NCBI RefSeq assembly: GCF_032854445.1
Contig: NC_088305.1
Span: 7,257,606-7,321,605, forward strand
Source of the DNA: Liolophura sinensis
Taxonomy: Eukaryota > Mollusca > Polyplacophora > Chitonida > Chitonidae
Reading direction: 5' to 3'
Length of the DNA: 64,000 nucleotides
This document shows, in pieces, positions 1 through 50,125 of this stretch (position 1 is its first letter; each line of letters opens with the position of its first letter). A model generated the notes under the pieces. It had not been told where the DNA came from, did not search any database, and was given only the letters and a program-made list of their open reading frames with translations. A program made the translations under genes and the position numbers.

Positions 1-30
1 ACACCAATCAGATAAATAAATAAATAAATG
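1..30 (+). mobile_element. 3' tail of a tRNA-SINE cut by the window edge
   Basis: Begins acaccaatcagataaataaa, the terminal motif of the common SINE family in this window followed by its (AAAT)n tail. Confidence 0.6.
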
Positions 31-189
31 CGCAGTTGAATTCTTAGTAATGAGCAGCATGCTGTGTGGGGAGTGGCTGAATGGTTAAGCTAAAATAAAC
101 TTGACGTCTTTTTTTATAACTCCATACTCACAAATTCTTCACTTGTGCGTTGGTTGCTGTTCCTCTAGGCAGAGCAAATAAGTATCAGG

Positions 190-320
190 GGGAAAACCAC
201 CAAACTTTGGCAAGTTGCAGATGAACTTTCCAACATGTACAGATGTACAGATATGCACACCATATTGGTTCAGCTAGCGATGAAGAGACAAGTGTCTTTT
301 AAACCACTCCCACATTGACC
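190..320 (+). repeat. Dispersed repeat, 'fingerprint' family R2 copy
   Basis: Contains aaccaccaaactttggcaag, then gatgaactttcc, then cagatatgcacaccatattgg. The same ordered motifs recur at 1425-1580, 7405-7510, 15170-15215, 26485-26600, 32680-32765 (minus), 50640-50860 and 55780-55890. Best-preserved copies have a cacgtgtgacg core. It looks like a SINE body but no full unit with promoter boxes is visible. Confidence 0.5.
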
Positions 321-778
321 ACTCCTTCAAATAAAACAATAAGCAAATATTATGGCACTGGCAGGATTTGATCATTTATGGTTGAGGTCTATATGATTGT
401 ACTGTAACGAGTCAGAATGAACTGAAACTAAACTGAAAGTGAAACCTAAACTGAAAAGACATTACATCAGTGGTCATTACAGTAACGTTTGTTCAAAATA
501 AGGATGTCAGTGACGGTAAAAGCGAGTAAGACATGCTGAGATTCCAGGTATTGGAAACTTGCTAGCTAGCAGCCATTGTGTGTGTGGTTTGCATTTGAAT
601 TTGATTTGGCTGTGACTCCCAGATGTTCCAGGTAAATCACATCGGTTGAGTCCAGATACTCTACACTGGAAATAAGCAGTCTTGAGCTATCAGCACATGA
701 AAACTATTTATTTTAAAAAGTGATTAGAATTATCAAATCATTAACAGTAAAAAAAACTCATTGTTGCTGCATTGTCAG

Positions 779-3700
779 ACATCACCATAGCAACAGAAGT
801 GCTTCAGGTGCCCCTGGAGAAGAAGAAGAAGTGGCTGATCCATGGTATAGACATCACACGTAATGCCATGTCGGTGATGCTGATAGCCAGGTGAGTGGTT
901 AAGATGGTGTCCATTTCACAAGATGTAGGTTCAGTACTTAGCCTCTGACTTCAGTTCCTTGTGATTCTGCAGCCTTCACTGTTTTATGTTCCTTGTTAAT
1001 ACCATGAACAAGCTACTCATAGGGCCGATACTATACAGTTTGTTTTATTTTTTTGATTGTTAATTTCTTTGATTGCTAATTTCTTTGATTGTCAATTTCT
1101 GTCATTGTTAATTCCTTTGATTGTTAATTTCTTTGATTGTCAATTTTTTGATTGCTAATTTCTTTGATTGTCAGTTTCTTTGAATGCTAATTTCTTTGAT
1201 TGTCAATTTCTGTCATTGTTAATTTCTTTGATTGTCAATTTTTTGATTGCTAATTTCTTTGATTGTCAGTTTTTTTGATTGCTAATTTCTTTGATTGTCA
1301 GTTTCTTTTATTGTCGATTTTTTGACTGTCAATTTCTTGGATTGTTTATTAACCTCATACACCAGAATTTTTCTCTTAGTGCATCAGTTTTATGATTTGA
1401 AGAAACAGGAGTGAAAAGTGCAAATCACCAACATTTACCAAGTTGTTGAAGAACAGTTTGTGATGTACAAATCTGCACACCTCATTGGTGGAAGACTTCT
1501 TTGAGCATTAGACTGCCCCAGTGGCCTCACAAGCGCTGTTAACTGCAAAGTGTCTCACACAACAGCGAGGACGGGGGAATCTGCAAGTTCCCTGCGGGAG
1601 AGGTTATATAAATTCTGTCATGCAGTACTGTTTTTCTTTAAAACAAGTATTTATCGTTATTTTTTTGTTTCAGTCCCACGTCCAAATTTGATCACCTGGC
1701 TTTTCGAGATCCATATCAGGTGAGAAAATATGTCATTCCCAAGACTTGACAATATTCATCTTTTTCTATAATCTAAGAATAGGCTGTTTTATGGATACTC
1801 TAGCTAGTGGTAATATGCTGGGCCAGTAAAGTTCCAGTAGTTTTTGTCCATTTGAATTTCGAGGTTTTTGAAATTCAAAGTAAAAAAGTCTTCACCTACA
1901 TAATGTACGTATTATATATAATGTATTATTAATGGATGATGAGATGCTGTATGTTGGGATGTACATGTGTGTATTGTGTGATATGTTTGTCTGTCATTTT
2001 GTTAATACTGGATGATGAGATGCTGTATGTTGGGATGTACATGTGTTTTACTGTGTGACATTATTTGTCTGTCATTTTGTTAATACTGGATGATGAGATG
2101 CTGTATGTTGGGATGTACATGTGTGTATTGTGTGACATTATTTGTCTGTCATTTTGTTAATACTGGATGATGAGATGCTGTATGTTGGGATGTACGTGTG
2201 TGTATTGTGTGACATTATTTGTCTGTCATTTTGTTAATACTGGATGATGAGATGCTGTATGTTGGGATGTACATGTGTGTATTGTGTGACATTATTTGTC
2301 TGTCATTTTGTTAATACTGGATGATGATATGCTGTATGTTGGGATGTACATGTGTGTATTGTGTGACATTATTTGTCTCATTTTGTTAATACTGGATGAT
2401 GAGATGCTGTATGTTGGGATGTACATGTGTGTATTGTGTGACATTATTTGTCTCATTTTGTTAATACTGGATGATGAGATGCTGTATGTTGGGATGTACA
2501 TGTGTTTTACTGTGTGACATTATTTGTCTCTCATTTTGTTAATACTGGATGATGAGATGCTGTATGTTGGGATGTACATGTGTATATTGTGTGACATTAT
2601 TTGTCTCTCATTTTGTTAATACTGGATGATGAGATGCTGTATGTTGGGATGTACATGTGTTTTACTGTGTGACATTATTTGTCTCTCATTTTGTTAATAC
2701 TGGATGATGAGATGCTGTATGTTGGGATGTACATGTGTATATTGTGTGACATTATTTGTCTCTCATTTTGTTAATACTGGATGATGAGATGCTGTATGTT
2801 GGGATGTACATGTGTGTATTGTGTGACATTATTTGTCTGTCATTTTGTTAATACTGGATGATGAGATGCTGTATGTTGGGATGTACATGTGTGTATTGTG
2901 TGACATTATTTGTCTCTCATTTTGTTAATACTGGATGATGAGATGCTGTATGTTGGGATGTACATGTGTGTATTGTGTGACATTATTTGTCTCTCATTTT
3001 GTTAATACTGGATGATGAGATGCTGTATGTTGGGATGTACGTGTGTGTATTGTGTGACATTAATTGTCTGTCATTTTGTTAATACTGGATGATGAGATGC
3101 TGTATGTTGGGATGTACATGTGTGTATTGTGTGACATTGTTTGTCTGTCATTTTGTTAATACTGGATGATGAAATGCTGTATGTTAGGATGTACATGTGT
3201 GTATATTGTGTGACATTGTTTGTCTGTCATTTTGTTAATACTAGATGATGAGATGCTGTATGTTGGGATGTACGTGTGTGTATTGTGTGACATTAATTGT
3301 CTGTCATTTTGTTAATACTGGATGATGAGATGCTGTATGTTGGGATGTACATGTGTGTATTGTGTGACATTGTTTGTCTGTCATTTTGTTAATACTGGAT
3401 GATGAAATGCTGTATGTTGGGATGTACATGTGTGTATATTGTGTGACATTGTTTGTCTGTCATTTTGTTAATACTAGATGATGAGATGCTGTATGTTGGG
3501 ATGTACATGTCTGTATTGTGTGACATTGTTTGTCTGTCATTTTGTTAATACTGGATGATGAGATGCTGTATGTTGGGATGTACATGTGTGTATTGTGTGA
3601 CATTGTTTGTCTGTCATTTTGTTAATACTGGATGATGAGATGCTGTTTGTTGGGATGTACGTGTGTATTGTGTGACATTATTTGTCTGTCATTTTGTTAA

Positions 3701-6700
3701 TACTGGATGATGAGATGCTGTATGTTGGGATGTACATGTGTGTATTGTGTGACATTATTTGTCTGTCATTTTGTTAATACTGGATGATGAGATGCTGTTT
3801 GTTGGGATGTACATGTGTGTATTGTGTGACATTGTTTGTCTGTCATTTTGTTAATACTGGATGATGAGATGCTGTATGTTGGGATGTACATGTGTGTATT
3901 GTGTGACATTATTTGTCTCTCATTTTGTTAATACTGGATGATGAGATGCTGTATGTTGGGATGTACATGTGTGTATTGTGTGACATTATTTGTCTCTCAT
4001 TTTGTTAATACTGGATGATGAGATGCTGTATGTTGGGATGTGCATGTGTGTATATTGTGTGACATTATTTGTCTGTCATTTTGTTAATACTGGATGATGA
4101 GATGCTGTATGTTGGGATGTACATGTGTGTATTGTGTGACATTATTTGTCTCTCATTTTGTTAATACTGGATGATGAGATGCTGTATGTTGGGATGTACA
4201 TGTGTGTATTGTGTGACATTATTTGTCTGTCATTTTGTTAATACTGGATGATGAGATGCTGTATGTTGGGATGTACATGTGTGTATATTGTGTGACATTA
4301 TTTGTCTGTCATTTTGTTAATACTGGATGATGAGATGCTGTATGTTGGGATGTACATGTGTGTATTGTGTGACATTATTTGTCTGTCATTTTGTTAATAC
4401 TGGATGATGAGATGCTGTATGTTGGAATGTACATGTGTGTATTGTGTGACATTATTTGTCTCTCATTTTGTTAATACTGGATGATGAGATGCTGTATGTT
4501 GGGATGTACGTGTGTGTATTGTGTGACATTGTTTGTCTCATTTCGTTAATACTGGATGATGAGATGCTGTATGTTGGGATGTACATGTGTGTATTGTGTG
4601 ACATTGTTTGTCTGTCATTTTGTTAATACTGGATGATGAGATGCTGTATGTTGGGATGTACATGTGTATATTGTGTGACATTGTTTGTCTCATTTTATTA
4701 ATTCTGGATGATGAGATGCTGTATGTTGGGATGTACATGTGTGTATTGTGTGACATTATTTGTCTGTCATTTTGTTAATACTGGATGATGAGATGCTGTA
4801 TGTTGGGATGTACATGTGTGTATTGTGTGACATTATTTGTCTGTCATTTTGTTAATACTGGATGATGAGATGCTGTATGTTGGGATGTACATGTGTGTAT
4901 TGTGTGACATTATTTGTCTGTCATTTTGTTAATACTGGATGATGAGATGCTGTATGTTGGGATGTACATGTGTGTATTGTGTGACATTATTTGTCTGTCA
5001 TTTTGTTAATACTGGATGATGAGATGCTGTATGTTGGGATGTACATGTGTGTATTGTGTGACATTATTTGTCTGTCATTTTGTTAATACTGGATGATGAG
5101 ATGCTGTATGTTGGGATGTACATGTGTGTATTGTGTGACATTATTTGTCTGTCATTTTGTTAATACTGGATGATGAGATGCTGTATGTTGGGATGTACAT
5201 GTGTGTATTGTGTGACATTATTTGTCTGTCATTTTGTTAATACTGGATGATGAGATGCTGTATGTTGGGATGTACATGTGTGTATTGTGTGACATTATTT
5301 GTCTCTCATTTTGTTAATACTGGATGATGAGATGCTGTATGTTTGGATGTACATGTGTATATTGTGTGACATTATGTGGCTCTCATTTTGACATCACATT
5401 TATACTGGATGATGAGATGCTGTGTGTTGGTGTTGACAGGTACATATAATCAACCTTGTGGATGTGGATAAGGAAGTGGAGGCTTTGTTACACAGAGTCA
5501 TGTCATCTGATGGTAAGCAGCTGTGTTTGTTTGCCAGAACCATTTTGTTTTTTGCTTGGTCAAATTTGTTTATACATTAATTCCAGAAGGCTTTGACCAG
5601 TTGCCCTTGTGTTACTTATTTCATATTGCCCATCAACGTTTCTAGCAATGTTCATATTATATGTTGACATTTGCAGCCGTGTTCATATTGCATGTTGCCA
5701 TTTGTGGCAATGTTTATATTGTATGTTGACATTTATGGCAATGTTCATATTGCATACTGACATTTGTGGCAATGTTTGTATTGCATGTTGATATTTGTAG
5801 CAGTGTGCATGTTGATATTTGTGGCAGTGTCCATGTTGCATGTTGACATTTGTGGCAATGTTCATATTGCATGTTGACATTTTTGGCAGTGTTCATGTTG
5901 CATGTTGACATTTTTGGCAGTGTTTACATTGCATGCTAACATTTCTGGCGGTGTTTATATTGCATGTTGACATTTCTGGCAGTCTTCATATTGCATGTTG
6001 ACATTTGTGGCATTGTTTACATTGCATGTTGACATTTCTGGCAGTGTTTATATTGCATGTTGACGTTTGCAATGTGACATTAATATCCTGACATCATTAA
6101 TTGTTTTCTTTCTATGCATATCATTACCGCAGAGTTCTAGTGGGTTTCATTTTGGTGTCAAATTTTCATTTTCGGCCACAAAATTTTACTGCCCAGTTGA
6201 ATTCTTTGATGGTTGATGTGTGATAAATAGATTGTTAAACCATGGAATATGTCCGGGGTTTCCAGAGTCTCTGCAGTCGCTGGCTGACGTAATGGAGCTG
6301 CTACGACAGTACGTATGTCGTGGGAAAGCCTTCCCATCATCCTTCAGCTGGATGTGGGAGGTGAAGGACAAATGGCCCTCGTTCTCCATCAGACAGTTAC
6401 AGACCATGAGGTAGGTCACGGAACAAAATTAACGCTGGTCTGTGGCCATTAGAATTGTGGTCAGGCCAGTACTGAGTTTGACCTTTTCCAGACCAGGGAC
6501 CTGTTGCACAAACCGCATATACATGTCGCGTTACGTGCACATAGCTTCCATGGCAACCAGTATTGTAAAAATTATGTCGCCATGGTAGTTACATGAGCGT
6601 ATTGCTCTGTTTGCTTTATGAGTGAGTGAGTGAGTGCTTGGGGTTTAACGTCGTACTCAACAATTTTTCAGTCATATGACGACGAAGGAATCCTTAGGGT

Positions 6701-24310: not shown

Positions 24311-24568
24311 AGCCTCCGTGGCTCAGTTGGTAAGCGCGCTAGCGCAGCGCAATGACCCAGGAGTCTCTCACCAATGCGTTCGCTGTGAGTTCAAGTCCAG
24401 CTCATGCTGGCTTCCTCTCTGGCCGTAAGTGGGAAGGTCCTCTAGCAACCTGCGGATGGTCGAGGGTTTCCCCCGGTTTCCACCCACCATAATGCTGGCC
24501 GCCGTCGTATAAGTGAAATATTCTTGAGTACGTCGTAAAACACCAATCAAATAAATAAATAAATAAAT
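24311..24568 (+). mobile_element. Full-length common tRNA-SINE
   Basis: A box TGGCTCAGTTGG, gcgctagcgcagcgcaatga, B box GTTCAAGTCC, core ggtcctctagcaacctgcgg, ccaccataatgctggccgcc, tcttgagtacgtcgtaaaac and (AAAT)n tail. Internal pol III promoter boxes are intact. Confidence 0.9.
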
Positions 24569-26600: not shown

Positions 26601-27129
26601 AAAAGGGGACCTCAACGAACACAATGGCAAGACAGGTGTCGTCTACAAAGAGTAGGCCTACGTTCTAAATTCTTCTTCCGAAGGTTTTGTGTCTATAACT
26701 AATAAGTTTTGCTTTGTGCTGAGTGATCTCTGTTCTCAGTGTACAGACTAACTGATAGCCGAAACAAACAAGAAATCCACAACGACTCGTTTAGTGGGCA
26801 ATGCTGTTGTAAGACAGTAGACAGCTATAAGCCCGATTGGTTGGCGGAGTAGGAAACTTCTTGAGATTAATGCAGTACCGAAATTCTCCTACTGATATCA
26901 CTGATATGTTGTTGAATGGAGAGACACACAGTGACGGCTAGTGAAATTGGGCGCGTAAAATAGAGTGTTTCACGGTCGATCCTTGATTGAATATTACAGA
27001 AAAAAGGCCTACCCTTCATTAAAAGCGCCTGTTCTCAGTAAAGCCCTGTTTTCTGCCTCCTATCAAGGTATATTTGTCCACCCCTGAGGTACCCACCTCT
27101 CCAAATGAAATGATTGCTTTCTGACCTTC

Positions 27130-27912
27130 ATCAACCTTACCTGTTTGGCCATCCACATGATTGCCTTTCTGACCTTCCCTAGTCCTTGCTGTCCGACCAG
27201 TCACATGACTGCCTTTCTAACCTTCCTCAGTCCTTCCAGTCTGACCATATACGTTTGCCTTTCTGATATTCCCCAAGAATTCCTGTCTGGCCTTCCTCAA
27301 TCCTTCCTGTCTGACTACCCACATGGCTGCCTTTCTGATATTCCCCAATCCTTCCTGTCTGACCATCTACATGACAGCCTTTTCCCCCTGCCCGACCATC
27401 CACATGACTGCCTTTCTGATCTTCCCCAATCGTTTCTCTCTACCCGTCCACCTGACTGCCCTTCTACTCTTCCCTAATCTTTCCTGTCCGACCATCCACA
27501 TGACTGCCTTTCTCATCTTCCCCAATCCTTTCTCTCTAACCATCCACATGACTGCCCTTCTAATCTTCCCCAATCCTTCCTGTCCGATCATCTACATGAC
27601 TGCCTTTCTGATATTCCCCAATCCCCTCTCTCTGACCATCTACATGACTGCCTCTCCTTCCTGACCGACCACCATCTACATGACTGCCTTTCTCATCTTC
27701 CCCAATCCTTTCTTTCTAACCGTCCACATGACTGTCCTTCTAATCTTCCCCAATCCTTCCTGTCCGACCATCTACATGACTGCCTTTCTGATATTCCCAA
27801 TCCCCTCTCTCTGACCATCTACATGACTGCCTTTCCTTCCTGTCCGACCACCATCTACATGACTGCCTTTCTGATCTTCCCCAGTCGTCTCTCTGACCAT
27901 CCACAGGAATAG
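27130..27912. repeat. Minisatellite, ~45-52-bp unit with a ~180-bp higher-order block
   Basis: Units of catctacatgactgcctttc, tgat(a)ttccccaatcc and ttcctgtccgac. The stretch from about 27590 is repeated at about 27770 with the same internal variants (cccctctctctgaccatcta). The frames of 110-113 codons over it are by-products. Confidence 0.88.
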
Positions 27913-28137
27913 GTAAGTCCACTGTTCCTCGTGAATTCCTCAAGCGGAAGTTAAGAATGGTATCCAGGTCACATACACAAGGCACACTGACGAATGTTTT
28001 TTATCAAACCTCTAGCTATACCCTTCCCTTGAAAAGTGGTTAGCGGTAAAGTCTCAAGTCTATGCCCGGCGCTAAGAATCCGGTCCTCGGATATTTGTAT
28101 AATTTCTGACATACCTTTGTCTTTGGGAGCTAGTGTT

Positions 28138-28215
28138 TAACGTTGTTTTGGAAATGGATCTTGCGATTATCGACTTGGAACCCCCTTTAAGGACTACTAA
28201 TGGTATACGAATGTC
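28138..28215 (+). repeat. Dispersed repeat R5, copy 1
   Basis: ttgttttggaaatggatctt, acttgga.cccc, ggtatacgaatgtcgg; parallels 51790-51870. Confidence 0.45.
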
Positions 28216-28744
28216 GGACATGACGCTTATATTCACACACAGTGACATCCAAAGCCACCTACAGTGGAATTGGGATAAAAGTACATTACACGACAAAGAG
28301 ACGATGAGCTATAAAAGCTCAGAACAGTAGCCTCAACCACAAGAATAGTCGGCGACGAATCACTCATTCGATGTATATAAACAATAACATGTTTACAACA
28401 AATCACAGCTGGTTCTAGAAAGGACATAGAGAAAGAATATATATTGACAGTGAGCATTCAGAAACACCACTCCAACTGGCTTTAAACTATAGAAAGAGTT
28501 CCAAATCTAGGTCAGTCGCTGACTCGTTTAGCCTCAAACCGGTTCATTTACAATGCATACCAATGAAATTAACACAATGTATTACATACAGGGTCACAGC
28601 AGTCAAACTACAGTATTTGACGTGTTTGTATTTCCACGTATTCTCTATTCTAGTCACCTCTTTAACATCTAAATCACAATTTAATATGACGGTTTACTGC
28701 TTTGTAATATCTGTTGGGACCTTTGCCTTGGTTTGTTTACACCG

Positions 28745-29200
28745 TCATAACCAATATGACTGACCGAACGTTCAAGGGGCTTACATTTAAAACTGTCAAA
28801 CCCATTTAGAGTGACTGAACGATCAAGGGGTGCTACATTTAAAACCGCCATAACAAATTGAAATGACTGAGTAGGGAAGAGGGCTACATTTAAAACCGTC
28901 ATAGCTAATTGGAGTGACTGACCAGTGAACAGGGCAACATTAAAAACCACCATAACCAATTAAAGTCACTAAACGGTCAAGTGGGGCTACATTTAGAACC
29001 GTTATAACCAATTGGAGCAACTGAACAGTGAAGAGTGCTACATTTAAAACCGTCATAACTAATTAGAGTCACTAAACGGTCAAGAGGGCTACATTAAAAA
29101 AAACCGTCATAGCTAATTGGAGTGACTGAACAGTGAAGAGGGCTACGTTTAAAACTGTCATAACCAATCAGAGTGAATGAACTGTCATGGAGGCTACACC
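28745..29200. repeat. Minisatellite, 50-54-bp unit, ~9 copies
   Basis: ctacatttaaaaccgtcata motifs at about 28781, 28833, 28884, 28934, 28987, 29038, 29089 and 29143, separated by gagtgactgaacagtgaaga-type sequence. Confidence 0.88.
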
Positions 29201-29479
29201 ATGCGTAGTAAGAGATTTAGTTTTAAAACCTGCAACATTAAGAACTGCCAAAAACGCACATACATGCAGAGTCACTGAGTGCTACGTTACAAATGATTGT
29301 ATGTTGAAGAGGGCTTTGCTTGAAACAACCATCTGCAAAGTCAAGGTTAATACACAGAAAGCTGTTAAATGGAAAATCTTTTTTCAAGTCTTTTGCCCAA
29401 TATTTTGCGAGGGGATTTTGTCGTAGCGTTCGGTGACCATCTATCTGTTCGACCGTCCACCTGTCCAAGTCCTTAGTAT

Positions 29480-29790
29480 GACGCTATCTCTTGAACAACT
29501 TACCTCAACTTACACCATACTTCCCACGTGTCATGTGGAAGAGTTTTAGCCACCTTGGTGCATTTTCAAGGTTACTGGGATAATTAAAGTTAAACTTTAT
29601 GAAAGGCTAGTTATCAGACACAATATCTCTTAAACGGTTTAACTCAAGTTTACCACAAAATTACTCCACAGTTGCCCCGTATCATAAGGGATTATATCAT
29701 ATCATATCATTTTCTTCGACCATTTTCAAGGTCACCGGGATCACTAAATTTAAAAAAGCCTGGGTCATCCAGATTCAGCATTTGATTTAC
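29480..29790. repeat. Two degenerate ~139-bp tandem units
   Basis: ctatctcttgaacaacttac at 29485 and atatctcttaaacggtttaa at 29624, each followed by a tcaagttta/ccac, ccaca(gt) and cattttcaaggt(t/c)ac.ggga block. Confidence 0.65.
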
Positions 29791-29975
29791 TCTGGGCACT
29801 CCCGTTTCCTTTCCTGCAAAAAACTTAGATTAGTACAGGGTGAAACATTAGCGAGTGAACTGAATGAATTGACCTTCCTTTTTCTGGAAACGGAATTTGA
29901 TGTCGCTAAACATTAGACCACTTCCAGATCATTTCCATTGGTGCCTTTTCCGTCACTCGACATCGAATCCCTTCT

Positions 29976-31420
29976 AAGTGTGGACAAAGGAATTGTTTAA
30001 CGTTTGAACTCTTAAACACCTCAAATAACTGCAGTTCGTCTCTGATTGGTAAATCATATTATGTTCAATCTTACGTTAATCGTAGTTGTCAATCATCATG
30101 TTGCTTTTATTTGGTTGTGGTCAACAGTATGTTAGAAAGACGACCTAAAAATTACATCAAAATGGCCACAGAAAATCTGTTAGGAAAAAACTGCTAATAG
30201 ACAAAAATTTTTCTCCCTCCAACCATGGATGGGACCACTTCAGCATTCAAATAATAGACATGATTTATCCTTCATCAACGGACACTGTTTCCGATGCCGA
30301 ACGGAAAATACTTGATGGACAACTATTTGATACGCAGGAGCTTCGTAGAGGTTTTCCTTATGGCTTAAATGCCAATGTTATGGAGGCTGGTAGCGTAACA
30401 TCCAGTCAGCCACACGATTCTAACATAACCCAATTGTCCAAATGCCATCAAAGACGGCAACGCAGCCATGGCGGAAGTTTAATAAAGTATCGATTCACAG
30501 CAACATAACTGTCAGCTACCTGTAAGGTTTGTTTAAAACAACTGATAGCATGCACGCTCTAGGCACAGTATTATGGGCACTTCCTCATAAAATACTGAGC
30601 AAAGTGAATGCCGAAGCAACGCCCACTTCCGCGTATGTATACCCTATTTTCGACTTTATCGTCCAGTCAAAATAGTTCAGACTACTAAAACTAGAATGTG
30701 TTTAAAATTAAAGTACCTAGATAGTGGTCCTGATTTAATCAACATCCCTTGAATTTTAAATGATCCAGAGGTTATCAATGTTGTGCCGAATTACTTCAAC
30801 ATACGAGATCCCCTATGTATTTTCCAGCAATGTACTAAACCAAAGATGTTCAATTACCCGAAAGCAGTTAAAGATTTTGAGTTGACCAATTACACTTCTA
30901 ATAGGTACATTTGTGACTGTGAATCGTCAGACTTTACTTACCATCCATGTAAACGTGTCATGACTGGTAACCTTAATATTATAAATAACGATGATCTATG
31001 AAGACTGCTTGTCAGGGGTCCCGTGTATAGAGAACCGAGAAAGATAAATATTCGAGCTAATAAAAAAAAATTGTCCTTACGCCGGAAGCTATATACTAAT
31101 AGTGTATAGGTATCCCGATGGGTGCCAGTTGTGCCCCACTTTTGGCTGACCTATACCTGTCCTCATATCAGTACGATAATATGCAGAAACTATTAAGGAG
31201 TAATCATCACTAGGCGCGACCTTTCTCATTCACTAAACAGTATACTGATTTTGATTGGCGTTTTACGCCGTACTAAACAATATTTCACTTATACGACGAC
31301 GAACAGTATATTGATGATGTGCTAGCTTAAACAACCCATGTGTGGCAAAACGGTTTCCTCTCCCGCAGATTGTATGACAGTTTCCGCGGTTGCCCTAACC
31401 AGATAGCCATTTTCCTTATA
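29976..31420 (+). mobile_element. Decayed Penelope-like retroelement with GIY-YIG endonuclease upstream of reverse transcriptase (Naiad-like)
   Basis: Three coding blocks lie in order on the plus strand. Endonuclease 29976-30507: a CG..NC pair (KCGQRNC), then GKSYYV, CFYL, QQYV at 30122-30133, HRKSV, WDHFSIQIID, ERK and PYGLN at 30356-30370; this is the Zn-associated GIY-YIG domain of Penelope-like elements, broken by one frameshift near 30110 and a TAA near 30143. Linker with RQRSHGG at about 30450. Reverse transcriptase N-terminal part 30783-31091: YICDCESS, MTGNLNIINN, LRRLLVRGPVYREP. RT core: IGIPMGASCAPLLADLYL from 31106, then FSFTKQY/YIDDVLA with the catalytic YIDD interrupted by a SINE fragment. 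Much of the RT fingers is missing between YREP and GIPMG, and the thumb is reduced to an LYD-like trace near 31370. Many stops make it a non-functional relic. Endonuclease-before-RT order is that of permuted Naiad/Chlamys elements; two adjacent unrelated fragments are the alternative. Confidence 0.78.
31251..31301 (-). mobile_element. 5'-truncated SINE fragment inserted in the Penelope-like RT, with target-site duplication
   Basis: Only the last ~50 bp of the common SINE (minus orientation, ttttacgccgta...cacttatacgacg) is present. It is bracketed by 13-bp near-identical direct repeats, aacagtatactga at 31236-31248 and aacagtatattga at 31302-31314. Removing it restores FTKQYIDDVLA, the RT catalytic motif, so the SINE landed exactly in the YIDD codons. 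Confidence 0.8.
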
Positions 31421-32419
31421 TATATATAATATGAACAGAAACGAGTTTGTGACCGGGCTACAACGGCAAGTGTTTTCCCCGTGAAATTTTCATTTGTGGT
31501 GGACACATTTTTCCACTTGCGCGGTTGTCATGGTAACGACCTACCCGTCATCAACAACCATGAAGACTTCTCTCAGGGGTTTTACTCACCACAGTGCAGC
31601 TGGTATTCTTTTATGCATTTCAAACAAACAAGCAACTGAGATAAATATTTTATTATCGACAACTGATATTCTGGCATAGTGCACGATTTAAATACTGATT
31701 TCACACAGTCACCCTAGAGCACACCTTGCGCCGTTCCAACATCAGTGAAAACTATTGACTGCTTCTCTTTGAATGATTCCGTCCAATTGGCCTGGCGATT
31801 ATTGACCTGGGACGGCCTTACTGGTAGACGACTGTATAAGAATGTTTGTTTCGACATAAAGATACATATACATGTACCCATCCCCTGGAGTGTTAACAGT
31901 GTTAAAAAAATGTCATGACATCCTCTCAATCCAGCGGCAATAGCAGAAAGTGTAGTAGTGATGGGAAGTTGATGTTTTTCATGTGTTGTTGAAACAAGGG
32001 CTTGCCTGCGGTGCTATGGCATCGCGCGAAAGTAACACTTAGTTGAAGTCGTATGACAGCTAACGTATTCCCATGTACGTGGATACGGGACTATGTTTTT
32101 GTGAGCTGGTTTGACATATCTGAAGATTATATGTCATCTAGTGCAATACAATATTGGATGAGAAAACTTTATGATGTCCTCTCTCCCTGTTTCCCGGAAT
32201 GCTGAAACGTGATAACGTCAGTACAACGCATGGGCTACGAATGGTTCACTTCTCACTAAAGTATTAATACAACAAAGAAAACGGACGAAAAAATATACTC
32301 TGTGGTTTTTGAAAAGCGTTTGTCGTCTTTTTCAAATTAATACCGACAGAATGTCAGTGGATTATCATAATAATTTTACATCATATTCTACATCTTCGTT
32401 TTAGATCATATCGAATTTC
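31421..32419. other. Unassigned DNA downstream of the Penelope-like relic
   Basis: May include the eroded 3' end of the element; nothing further is recognisable. Confidence 0.35.
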
Positions 32420-32530
32420 GATGTATTTATTTATTCATTTATTTATTAATTTACTTGATTGGTGTTTTTCAAGAATATTTCACTTATACGAAGACGACCA
32501 ACATTATGGTGGGAGAAAAACCGGACAACT
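32420..32530 (-). mobile_element. 3' part of a common SINE
   Basis: tatttatttattcatttatt tail, cttgattggtgtttttcaag, atttcacttatacgaagacg, acattatggtgggagaaaaa. Confidence 0.7.
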
Positions 32531-32679
32531 CTCAAATACCCAGAAACCTCAAATCCTGGAAATGTATCGATACCTTATGCAAATCTCTGGACACTTAATG
32601 TATTCTGCTATTGCAGCGGATTGTTCTGTTAAATATAACACACATAATTTAACATAAAGATTCCTACAGTATAACGGTA

Positions 32680-32826
32680 TCTTCCACCAGTATGGTGTAC
32701 ATTTGTGTACGTCACATGTGGGAAAGTTCATCCGCAGTTTACACGCGACACTCTGGTTCCTTCCGACTACAAAACTATAAGAATTCTTGAGCATGGCGTT
32801 AAGCACAGGCGAACAAATAAATAGAT
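32680..32826 (-). repeat. Inverted R2-family remnant next to a short plus-strand SINE tail
   Basis: ccagtatggtgtacatttgt and gtacgtcacatgtgggaaag read as R2 on the minus strand; 32785-32826 (attcttgagcatggcgttaa, gaacaaataaatag) resembles the common SINE end on the plus strand. Confidence 0.45.
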
Positions 32827-32954
32827 TTAATCAGAAAGGATTCCTCATCGACAGTTATGGTAATTCCGCGCTTGGCAGTGAACATACCTGTAATGCAGTA
32901 GTTAAAGTAATGGATGGTAATGTGTCTTGATGGAGCATCACACCTGGTGTGATC

Positions 32955-33785
32955 GACATAGCGTTCCACTGAGGTAGTAGTAGCCGGCTCAAAGTTCCAG
33001 TGAGGTAGAAGTAGCCGACTTTGTGTTCCAAGGAGGCAGCCGTAGCCGACATAGTGTTCCAGTAAGACAGAAGTAGCCGGCATAGTCTTCCAATGAGACA
33101 GCACTAGCCGGCATAGCCTTCCAGTGAGGCAGCAGTAGCCGACACATCGTTACAATGAAGCAGCAGTAGCCGAAAAAGTGTTCCAATGAGGCAGAGGTAG
33201 CCGGCATGGTCTTACAGTGAAGCAGCAGTAGCTGGCATAGCATTCCAGTAAGGCAACAGTAGCCGGCATAGTAGTCCAATGAGGTAGCAGTCGCCGGAGT
33301 AGTCTTTCAATGAGACAGCAGTGGCCGGCATGGTGTTCCTGTGAGGCAGCAGTAGCCGGCATATCGTTCCAGTGAGGCAGCAGTAACCGGTATTTTGTTC
33401 CAATGAGGAAGCAGTGGCCGGCATAGTGTTTCAATGAGGTAGCAATAGCAGGCATATCATTCCAATGTGGCAGCAGTAGCCGACATCGTGTTCCAGTGAG
33501 GCAGCAATGGCCGGCATAGTGTTCCAGTGAGGTAGAAATAGCAGGCATATCATTCAAGTGTGGCAGCACTGGCCAACAAAGTGTTCCAGTGAATCAGCAG
33601 TAGCCGGTACAGCATGCCAATGAGGCAGCTGTCGCCGGCATTGTCTTCCGGTGTGGCAGCAGTAGCCGGCAAAGTATTCCAATGTGGCAGCAGTAGCCGA
33701 TATAGCATCCAGTGAGGCAGCAGAAGTCGGCATAGTGTTCTAATGAGGCAACAGTAACCAGCATAGTGTCCCAATGAGGCATGTC
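32955..33785. repeat. Minisatellite, 31-bp unit, ~26 copies
   Basis: Unit gttccagtgaggcagcagta plus gccggcatagt. Because 31 is not a multiple of 3 a 93-bp (31-codon) protein period appears in all three minus frames (up to 139 codons); no gene is implied. Confidence 0.92.
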
Positions 33786-34109
33786 ATGGCTGAGTATTCA
33801 AAATGTGACCTAATAGACAGAGACAACCGTCAGGTAGGCCAGTGTAGGAAATAGTATTAAACACCACAAAGGAATACCAGCATACATTAAAGTCGCTCAC
33901 TTCCGTCTACTTTTAACATGTTTACCGCTAGCACCAACCGATGATAAAGGCGGCTCTTGGATATTAAGCAGGATGTATAACCCAGTTACATCTGCATTGC
34001 AGTAGACCCTCGAATGGAATTCCCGGCAGTTACCGGCCAGACGGCACAGGTCGATAACATCGATCGTCTCTATGACACGTGTCCCAAAATACACATTGTC
34101 TGTCTAACC

Positions 34110-34830
34110 TATCAATAGACGTAAACACCAGATATGAGTGGTCGGTCTATCCGAGGAGTAAATATATGTATACAGTAGATATGGGCCACACAAATACACA
34201 GGGTCGGTGTAACCGTAGAACAAATAGACGTAAACAGTAGGTATGGACGACATAAATACACAGGGTCGGACTAACCGTAGAATGAATAGACGTAAACAGT
34301 AGGTCTGGGCCACATAAATACACAGGGTCGGTCTAACCGTAGGACAAATAGACGTAAACAGTAGATATGGACTACATAAATACACAGGGTCGGTCTAACC
34401 GTAGAACAAATAGACACAAACAGTAGATATGGACTACATAAATACACAGGGTCGGTCTAACAGTAGAACAAATAGACGTAAACAGTAGGTATGGACCACA
34501 TAAATACACAGAGTCGGTCTAACCGTAGAACAAATAGACGTAAACAGTACAGATGGGCCTATTCAAGGTTGGACTAACCATAGAAATAGACGTAAACAGC
34601 AGATATGGGTGATGGGAATATGCGAGGTTGGTCTAACTGTACAATAAATAGGCCTATACAGTTGATAGGAGCCACACAAATTGACAAGGTCAGTCTAACC
34701 GTAAAACTAGGCGTAAACTGTAGATATGGGTGACTGAAATATGCGAAATAGATCTAACAGGAAAAATAGACGTAAACAGTGCCGAAGGGCCACACAGATT
34801 CACAGGGTAGGTCTAACAGTAGAAATACGA
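34110..34830. repeat. Minisatellite, 62-bp unit, ~11 copies
   Basis: ggtcgg(t/a)ctaacc at 34202, 34264, 34326, 34388 and 34450, with caaatagacgtaaacagtag and cataaatacacag; units decay towards the right end. Confidence 0.92.
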
Positions 34831-35740
34831 AATGTTTGGGGCTGAGCTACCGCGCAAAACGTTAACACTGTCGCTTAAGGAAAATTAATGGGGGGTCTGT
34901 TGCCAAACAGACGTAACCAGTAGACATGGGATTGTAGCTAACGTAGACCACAGATTGGCACCAGTTTCTGGTCATGCAGTTGGCATCTATATATTCTTTC
35001 GACATGGGCATTTTTGTGCACACTGAAGGATGTAATTGCATATGCACATACCAAACATCTGGAATTTTGTATGTGTGCCTAATTCAGGAAATCTAGATGA
35101 TGCAAACTTATTGTGAAGTCGACTGTATATTGCCCTGAAATCCCCACAGTATGGCTGTAATGTTGACGAAGTCACAATCATTCATTCATAATCAATCACT
35201 TAGCCTATAGTCGTAAAATAAGTAAGCCTAAGGTTGTTGACAGAATGTTGTTATTATGTTGTATATCATAATTGAGCTAATACTGCTTTGGAAGAGTTAA
35301 CAGCTACTATTTGTACCCAGTCCAAATGTGACCATTTTGTGTGGTCTGAGGGCCAGGTATGGCAATGAAATGTGTTACTAATATATTTTATTTTCTCCTC
35401 ACAGGGTTACTCTCCTTTTCCATTGGTCGAGAGACGGTCACAAGATATTCTGCAAAACATGACTTACAATGATCACGCGCTCAAGGAATGCAACGTCACA
35501 CTCACAAAGTAATATCCCAGGTTCACGAGGCAATATCCGACGATCTCGTGCTAATATCCAACGATCACGTGCGTTTATTCCACGACAGTTTTCCCCCTTT
35601 GTTGTCTGCCCGGCGTCTGTGTGTTTGTACAGTGGCCATTTCCAACGGTTTACAGTTATAGCTCCGTTATCGATGTACAAATCCAGCAATTTAAACACAA
35701 CCCAAAAAGGTACAATGTTTTTTCGGTATAATAAAACATA
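34831..35740. other. No gene assigned; one 129-codon minus frame
   Basis: The frame 35438-35827 (minus) contains a short internal repeat (RDRWILARDRRILPRE) and shares its end with the foldback at 35741-35875. No domain is recognised; it is more likely transposon-derived than a host gene. Confidence 0.35.
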
Positions 35741-35875
35741 TGGTACATGATGTGGGATATGATATGAGGAATTGTCAGCTCTCGACACGTGATATTCAAC
35801 TTGGACTTCGCCCTTACTGAATATCACTTCTTGCTGGCTGACAATTCCTCATATCCCATCCCACAGTACGCACCA
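35741..35875. repeat. Long imperfect inverted repeat (foldback)
   Basis: The 39-bp arms 35741-35779 and 35837-35875 are inverted copies with a few mismatches (gatatgaggaattgtcagc versus gctgacaattcctcatatc). Inside them gtgatattca (35789) and tgaatatcac (35818) form a second inverted pair, leaving a short loop. Confidence 0.8.
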
Positions 35876-36049
35876 TTTGTATAATATTGCAACCTTACGT
35901 CATGCATGCTAATAGTGTGAACCACACTTGGAGATCTTAAAATACAGAACTTAAAGCGTACATGAAACGCTTGTTTTTTTTTTAATATGGTGTATATTAT
36001 ATGGCTGAAGATATAGAAGTACAAAAATTAATTCTTGGGGCGTAAAAAT

Positions 36050-43310: not shown

Positions 43311-43580
43311 GGGGCCTCCGTGGCTCAGTCCGGTTAGCGCGCTAGCGCAGCGTAATGACCCAGGAGCCTCTCACCAATGCGGTCGCTGTGAGTTCAAGTC
43401 CAGCTCATGCTGGCTTCCTCTCCGGCCGTAAGTGGGAAGGTCTGACAGGCAACCTGCGGATGGTCGTGGGTTTCCCCCCGGGCTGTGCCCGGTTTCCACC
43501 CACCATAATGCTGGCCGCAGTCGTATAAGTGAAATATTCTTGAGTACGGCGTAAAACACCAATCAAAAAAAAAAAAAAAA
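43311..43580 (+). mobile_element. Full-length common SINE with 12-13-bp target-site duplication and pure poly-A end
   Basis: Starts ggggcctccgtggctcagtc, A and B boxes present, ends caccaatc plus about 16 A rather than (AAAT)n. Flanks tcaaagttagaa (43299-43310) and tcaaaggttagaa (43581-43593). Confidence 0.92.
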
Positions 43581-45514: not shown

Positions 45515-46895
45515 GCATCTGCATGATGTGCACGATCCTGTTTGAGATCGTGCTTGGGATCATGTGCACTATCGTGTTTCTGATCATGTGCACGATCATG
45601 TTTGTGATCATGTGCACGAGCATGTTTGTGATCATGTGCACGATCATGTGTATCTGATCATGGGCACGATCATGTGTTTGTTATCATGTGCACGATCATG
45701 TTTGTGATCATGTGCACGATCATGTTTGTGATCATGTGCACGAGCATGTGTTTGTTATCATGTGCACGATCATGTGTTTCTGATCAAGGGCATGATCATG
45801 TTTGTGATCATGTGTTTGTGATCATGTGCACGATCATGTTTGTGATCATATACACGATAATGTCCACGACTATGTAAACGATCAATCTTGCGATAATGTT
45901 TATGATGTGCTTGCTAATGTGTACGACCATGTATACAATCATGTGCGTGTCCTTGTGTACGATTACATGTACGTGTGCCATCATTTTCGTGATCGCACAT
46001 ACGATTATGTGTGCAATTATGTACATAATCATGTGTACCATCATCTGCACGATTATGTGTACCATCATGTGCACGTTCATCTTTATCATCACCTGCACGA
46101 TCATGTATACCATCAAGTGCACGATCATGTGTACCGTCATGTGCACGTTCATCTTTATCATCACCTGCACGATCATGTATACCATCAAGTGCACGATCAT
46201 GTGTACCGTCATGTGCACGTTCATCTTTATCATCACCTGCACGATCATGTATACCATCAAGTGCACGATCATGTGTACCGTCATGTGCACGACCACGTGT
46301 ACACACATGTGTATGATCATGTGTACCATCATGAGCACGATCATGAGCGTGATTATGTGCACGACCATGTGTACCATCATCTGCACGATTATGAGTGCCA
46401 TCATGTGTACCATCATGTGCACGACCATGTGCGTGTTCATATGCACAACCATGTGTACCATCATTTGCATGAACATGCGTACCATCATCTGCCCCATCAT
46501 GTGTACCGCCATCTGCTCCATCATGTGTACCATCATGTGTACCGTCATGTGCACCATCATGTGTACCATCATGTGCACGACTATGTGTACCATCATGTGT
46601 ACAATTATTTGTACATTCATGTGCGTAATCATGTGTACCATCATCTGCACGGTCATATGTACGATTGGACGTATTTGTGCGATCATTTTGGTGATCGCAT
46701 ATACGGCTATGTGCGTAATCATGTGTACCATTATGTGCACGATCACGTGTACCATTATGTGCACGATCAAGTGTACCATCAACTGCACGATGACGTGTAC
46801 CATCATACGCACGATCGTATGTACCATCATGTGCACGATCAGGTGTACCATTATGTGCACCACCACATGTACCATCATGTTCACGATCACACTTC
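45515..46895. repeat. 1.4-kb minisatellite of a near-palindromic 12/24-bp unit
   Basis: Built from catgtgcacgat, catgtgtaccat and catgtttgtgat words. gtgcac and atgatcat-type steps are self-complementary. At 46069-46284 a 72-bp block (gtgcacgttcatctttatca...) is repeated three times at 46069, 46141 and 46213. The 12-bp phase leaves two plus frames (377 codons each) and one minus frame (360 codons) open. Confidence 0.95.
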
Positions 46896-49525: not shown

Positions 49526-50125
49526 GTGTCGGCTTATATGCCAAAAAGTGACAATTTATTTGATTATACGACGGCTTATATAATAACATGTGACGGCTTA
49601 TATGCTTATACGACAGCTTATATGCTAACATGTGACCGCTTATATACTAACATGAGGGGCCTCCGTGGCTCAGTCGGTTAGCGCGCTAGCGCAGCGTAAT
49701 GACCCAGGAGTCCCTCACCAATGGGTCGCTGTGAGTTCAAGTCCAGCTCATGCTGGCTTCCTCTCCGGCCGTACGTGGGAATGTCTCCCAGCAACCTGCG
49801 GATGGTCGTGGGTTTCCCCCGGGCTCTGCCCGGTTTCCCACCATATCCTTGAGTGCGGCGTAAAACACCAATCAAATAAATAAATATACTAACATGTGAC
49901 GGCCGATATGCTAACATGTGACGGCTTACATGCTAATGTGACAGCTTATATGCTATCATATGTCGGCTTATATGCTAACATGTGACGACTTACATGCTAA
50001 CATATGTCGGCTTATATGCTAACATGTGACGACTTATATGCTAACATGTGACGACTTATATGCTAACATGTGACGGTTTATATGCTAACATGTGACGGCT
50101 TATATGCTCACTTGTGACGGCATCC
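49526..50125. repeat. Minisatellite, 22-bp unit, split by a SINE
   Basis: Unit cttatatgctaacatgtgac(g)g on both sides of the SINE at 49655-49883; about 16 units. Confidence 0.92.
49655..49883 (+). mobile_element. Full-length common SINE inserted in a minisatellite, exact 13-bp target-site duplication
   Basis: Starts aggggcctccgtggctcagt (A box TGGCTCAGTCGG), B box GTTCAAGTCC. A short internal deletion has removed ataatgctggccgccgtcgt-type sequence before ccttgagtgcggcg. Flanked by atatactaacatg at 49642-49654 and 49884-49896, itself a minisatellite unit. Confidence 0.94.

Follow-up and report, generated by a model that had tools for sequence, protein, structure and literature searches.

A decayed Penelope-like element, probably of Naiad type with its endonuclease ahead of the reverse transcriptase, in the genome of the chiton Liolophura sinensis

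Components of the relic

The stretch of DNA analysed here (the window) comprises 64,000 nucleotides of the Liolophura sinensis genome (contig NC_088305.1, positions 7,257,606 to 7,321,605). All parts resembling a Penelope-like element (PLE) lie on the forward strand between 29973 and 31338, as established by reading the three forward frames and recomputing positions, and they follow one another: first a GIY-YIG endonuclease, then a linker that contains CxC, then the beginning of a reverse transcriptase (RT), and last RT motifs 4 and 5, the latter with YIDD. An earlier sequence-only reading had named the endonuclease, the linker, the RT start, GIPMG and YIDD; frame reading recovered every one of them and agreed with its strand and its sequence of parts.

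The endonuclease consists of two collinear parts in different frames. The first (29973-30116, forward strand) has KCGQRNC...SC as its cysteine knuckle and CCFYLV as its GIY-side strand; the second (30116-30370, forward), CGQQYV...NGHR...PYGLN, contains one in-frame stop. Two endonucleases, L031 and L042, which from motifs and context we read as those of PLEs (L031 also passes the Pfam GIY-YIG model), match this place in tblastn searches of the whole 64-kb window: L031 at 29976-30370 in two collinear pieces (E=4e-5) and L042 over the same interval (E=1.5e-4). In the alignment the columns C, C, C, Y and L of part 1 are common to the relic and to both of these endonucleases. Used in turn as a query, the window endonuclease finds the PLE endonucleases L033 and L044 at E=7e-9 and 5e-8. 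Of the CCHH residues expected of a Naiad endonuclease, one C and one H remain; N stands in place of the second H, and the position of the second C coincides with a frame change. Past PYGLN the frame continues for 45 codons without a stop (30371-30505, forward; ORF 30149-30508), and then comes a stretch of uncertain frame (30506-30698, forward) that is put in the element by its position only; neither a piece from 30371-30505 nor one from 30526-30672 had a convincing counterpart in independent sequences.

The linker and the beginning of the RT region occupy 30699-31001 (forward) and hold two in-frame stops, with CDC at 30912-30920 and TGNLNIINN at 30963-30989. CDC provides the CxC of the endonuclease-RT linker, a motif of Naiads that, being three residues long, is weak by itself. 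An RT N-terminal region, GPVYREPRKIN, follows at 31002-31067 (forward; GPVYREP at 31017-31037). A linker piece of the related locus L011 matches 30921-30989 (57% over 23 aa, E=3.7e-4), and a second L011 piece matches 31005-31067 (38%, E=0.034), the best place for that piece in the window. Selenocysteine was considered as a reading of two in-frame TGAs (30750 and 30999); neither stands at a motif cysteine, and the idea is not supported.

RT motif 4, GIPMGASCAPLLADLYLSSY, lies at 31106-31198 (forward) and includes GIPMG (31109-31123) and CAPLLADL; frame reading over the same positions gives GIPMGASCAPLLADL. In tblastn searches of the whole window the RT of L009 matches 31106-31249 at E=8e-11, with 51% identity over 49 columns, and that of L014 matches the same place at 2e-7. 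The family matched by RT motifs 4 and 5, present in genome records G001 and G058, is from its motifs probably one of PLEs, whose RT is related to telomerase RT; Pfam offers no match for it and PDB no relevant one. The matched part of the linker ends at 31067, and GIPMG follows after only 41 nt, as against roughly 630 nt in the relative on contig C2 of G001; between linker and GIPMG landmarks the distances are about 115 nt in the window and about 700 nt in C2. From this shorter spacing we infer that roughly 580 nt of the RT core are missing, an approximate figure given the low quality of C2. Nothing in 29000-32950 convincingly matched pieces from the middle and C-terminal parts of the relatives' RTs (the best E, 0.034, was for a place on the reverse strand), which indicates that only part of the RT is present. 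The RT region that had been described after the linker is real in its start, its GIPMG and its YIDD, but most of the core before motif 4 is gone.

A SINE inside RT motif 5

RT motif 5 is split in two. Its left part, FSFTKQYTD (31214-31249, forward), is reached by the L009 and L014 matches; its right part (31304-31338, forward) reads QYIDDVLA and then, after a frame change, LNNP, with YIDD at 31307-31318. In a search of a 4-kb target QYIDDVLA aligned with the L014 sequence RYIDDVLS at E=0.083, and LNNP was recognised by eye; the L014 counterpart of the split motif is FNFTFRYIDDVLSLNN. Between the two parts sits a 5′-truncated piece of a SINE (31250-31301, the end being approximate), whose sense is that of the reverse strand and which is identical at 47 of 52 positions to a copy at 43317-43573. 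The piece is bracketed by a target-site duplication, with a left copy at 31236-31248 and a right copy at 31302-31314 that agree at 12 of 13 positions. A match of this grade arose in one of 4000 shuffles of the right side, the flanks having been picked after being seen. Under a first null, with places drawn from the whole window, 1022 of 5000 were as good as the 13-bp duplication; since tandem repeats abound in the window the shuffle null was chosen, a choice made after the first null had been seen.

The domain that holds GIPMG and YIDD is interrupted, the SINE piece lying between them. YIDD was also considered as part of the SINE itself; 9 of 15 bases fit the SINE as against 12 of 13 that fit the left flank, and the duplication was preferred. 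Because FSFTKQYTD to the left and QYIDDVLA/LNNP to the right of the SINE parallel L014, this YIDD is most likely the RT's own, cut off from the left part by a later insertion. The locus offers a worked case of a SINE inserted into an older retroelement.

The SINE belongs to a dispersed family that occupies 28 places in the window (29 matches at E ≤ 1e-5, merged), many of them partial; further places include 24315-24555 and 49662-49880. The copy at 43317-43573 is full and in the opposite orientation, and by eye it shows tRNA-like boxes and a flanking short direct repeat; ARAGORN found no tRNA in it. The family may be akin to molluscan SINEs. Searches of G001, G058 and G070, of viral contigs and of the literature did not turn it up. 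Limpet SINEs are treated in PMC11121367.

Relatives and the strength of the matches

Relatives sought by the pattern GIPMGxxCAPLLADL numbered none in viral contigs and one in genome contigs, namely L001 in G001, on a contig titled Bathymodiolus septemdierum symbiont. With the L014 RT as query, 3 of 83 genomes at the order level (G001, G058 and G070, all of one family) gave 13 rows at E ≤ 1e-5, some overlapping; in the wider sets, 1 of 369 genomes at the class level and 1 of 398 at the phylum level responded, both being G001. Judging from title and content, the PLE copies in these three records would be host mussel DNA. As a side observation, DNA of the host animal, several PLE copies included, appears to be present in such symbiont genome records. 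Like the relic, these copies have the linker and RT motifs 4-5; unlike it, they jointly keep the RT core and C-terminal parts, and their endonuclease was not found.

Searches with other parts of the relic were less productive. The relic endonuclease returned three rows from the 83 genomes, G053 first (E=0.0036) and G058:C171 second (E=0.0052). The latter is a PLE endonuclease that Pfam missed, so that the Pfam GIY-YIG model is an incomplete test; in G001, G058 and G070 that model gave eight matches, and of the two inspected, C405 is a PLE endonuclease and C162 is not. The relic linker returned eight rows from the same 83 genomes, with the true relative ranked last (E=0.28); the top row, in G054 (E=0.01), was rejected on seeing nothing PLE-like in its sequence. 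Viral contigs scanned for PLE motifs or proteins held no PLE, the few pattern-fitting stretches being unconfirmed, and tblastn of phages and plasmids gave no PLE match. Neither the relic pieces nor the X-joined pieces matched GIY-YIG or RT in Pfam, which failed to identify the cleaner relative L014 as well, and the PDB sequence search returned chance rows only, with nothing below E 0.7 for the relic pieces.

The empty Pfam and PDB results, together with the fact that no frame is open for long, are what might be said for chance resemblance within decayed repeat DNA. Against this, five independent queries find their best matches here, in collinear order, and for each of them 0 of 100 shuffles were as good (the second linker piece was not among the five). 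The linker gave the weakest of these results, with a best shuffle of 0.001 against a real value of 3.7e-4. The agreement of independent, collinear matches unequalled by shuffles indicates more than chance; chance resemblance is scarcely credible for the relic as a whole, and for the RT it is refuted. The case serves as a check that reading motifs directly from the letters can pick up relics of this kind even if Pfam sees none.

Domain order and the origin of the arrangement

A critical issue is how an endonuclease came to stand ahead of the RT. Classical Penelope elements place GIY-YIG after the RT, as in the canonical groups Penelope/Poseidon, Neptune and kin; the reverse order is known for the Naiad/Chlamys clade. 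In a 2021 account by Craig and colleagues Naiads are said to have the endonuclease before the RT and a CxC linker, among further features, and from its title the Naiad-type clade reportedly dominates many invertebrate genomes. Our data suggest that the relic is very probably a decayed and internally deleted PLE copy of this type, in which a single protein would run from GIY-YIG endonuclease through CxC linker to RT. It resembles Naiad PLEs in its endonuclease before the RT and the CxC linker between them. It differs from them in being dead, in having lost most of the RT core, including the part that would hold the insertion-in-fingers domain, and in its broken frame. A hammerhead ribozyme (Rfam) was absent from the window at the gathering score and from 28500-33000 at E up to 10, an absence that carries little weight, as the ends of the element may be lost; the lack of a canonical hammerhead is presumably a Naiad trait. 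In the literature, Naiad serves as a class name (PMC10941475) and the Chlamys group, related to Naiads, is reported in Ectocarpus (PMC12477816); the main text of a paper on bivalve elements (PMC10294476) makes no mention of Naiads.

Evidence for the order in the living element comes firstly from the relatives. On C2 the linker/YREP region (11180-11100) is followed by the GIPMG RT (10402), both on the reverse strand; since C2 holds the two on one strand, the linker and RT of the window belong to one family. Downstream of the RT family no endonuclease was found at ten loci on eight contigs searched with three endonuclease queries, the three weak rows (E 0.23, 0.23 and 0.41) including none that is an endonuclease. 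These loci (L001, L009, L010, L011, L021, L022, L023, L059, L060 and L061, with L009, L011 and L023 on one contig) carry 12 RT pieces between them, of which two are short; in each locus the sequence continues beyond the RT match for at least 1.03 kb, and several loci are of low quality. The matches of the window endonuclease to L033 and L044 serve as the control for these searches. Comparison with canonical PLEs bearing a C-terminal endonuclease (L031/L033 and L042/L044) points the same way: these share with the relic the endonuclease type and the cysteine and NGHR motifs, but differ in stopping right after the endonuclease – three codons after GIN in L031 and L042, where the window frame stays open for 45 codons past GLN – and, in L033, in the RT start. 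The canonical arrangement, an endonuclease after the RT and a stop directly behind it, is not what the window contains. Taken together, the ten-locus result, the open frame past GLN and the missing L033 flanks favour a true N-terminal endonuclease.

The flanks of L033 bear on a rival explanation, that the relic is part of a head-to-tail tandem of canonical PLEs in which the C-terminal endonuclease of one copy precedes the RT of the next. Such tandems are described in PMC3846280 and PMC11167929, and L033 itself (1-3501 of its locus, G058:C405) looks like one, with an endonuclease, a stop and, some 550 nt on, a frame with an RT start; spacing alone does not tell this arrangement from that of the window. 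Yet neither the RT start nor the pre-endonuclease region of L033 is significantly matched anywhere in 29000-32950 (best E 1.4 and 0.92, respectively), the window linker and RT match a family other than that of L033, the window endonuclease has no stop after GLN in its frame, and no direct repeat family brackets the relic in 27000-36000. A canonical tandem is consequently most unlikely, and neither it nor an RT-then-endonuclease order fits well with the absence of a downstream endonuclease at the ten loci and of canonical flanks here. The proposal that the relic is an endonuclease-first PLE thus holds up: both of its halves match independent PLE sequences, and these alternatives fit poorly. Two 24-nt inverted pairs, 75% alike, also bracket the relic and were taken as chance.

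A second rival holds that two unrelated insertions, a canonical PLE endonuclease fragment and a Naiad-type RT fragment, came to lie side by side. No independent match bridges the endonuclease and the linker, and the symbiont records contain both kinds of PLE. On the other hand, the two halves share a strand and the expected order, the canonical pre-endonuclease region has no match upstream, and the endonuclease is not a close relative of the canonical ones, being 29% identical to L031 in an alignment in which L031 and L042 are 52% identical, although decay also lowers identity. Two separate insertions are therefore an unlikely account, albeit the least unlikely of the rivals, and we consider that endonuclease and RT probably arrived in a single insertion. 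Assignment to the Naiad type would follow from the domain order and the linker. At no locus examined were an endonuclease and the matched RT seen together or in one frame, none of the relatives extending far enough in the 5′ direction to reveal one. The C2 element shows no endonuclease upstream of its linker and lends the reading no support; 5′ truncation or poor sequence may account for this. A single element that combined endonuclease and RT of different PLE lineages, so that the endonuclease-first order would have arisen anew at a later date instead of being inherited from Naiads, seems marginally less probable even than the tandem.

The history of the endonuclease-first copy can be outlined. 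In the living element the endonuclease would nick target DNA, and the RT would copy the element RNA from the nick by target-primed reverse transcription. For a Naiad-type element this step is proposed by analogy with a canonical PLE protein, for which DNA cleavage and insertion in vitro are reported (PMC11167929). After insertion, stops and frame changes would have accumulated and most of the RT core been lost; the SINE would then have inserted into RT motif 5, duplicating 13 bp. The marks of decay – stops in the endonuclease, linker and RT pieces, frame changes, the internal deletion of the RT and the SINE insertion – show that the PLE copy is dead. It is one more dead copy of a known PLE type and, as such, an ordinary genomic fossil.

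Minisatellites lie on both sides of the relic, at 28741-29198 and 32957-34729, with units of 51/103 bp, 31 bp and 62 bp, and an inverted repeat at 35731-35885 has 68-nt arms, 78% complementary and 19 nt apart. The window holds 12 open frames of at least 130 aa, several of them on tandem repeats or SINE copies; in the 24-bp arrays at 45546-46889 frames of more than 300 aa are open on both strands, probably an effect of the repeat, whose unit is a multiple of three. A 77-bp satellite at 1926-5390 comprises 45 copies with a 96% match, and its base composition differs strongly between the strands (GC skew 0.44 to 0.52).
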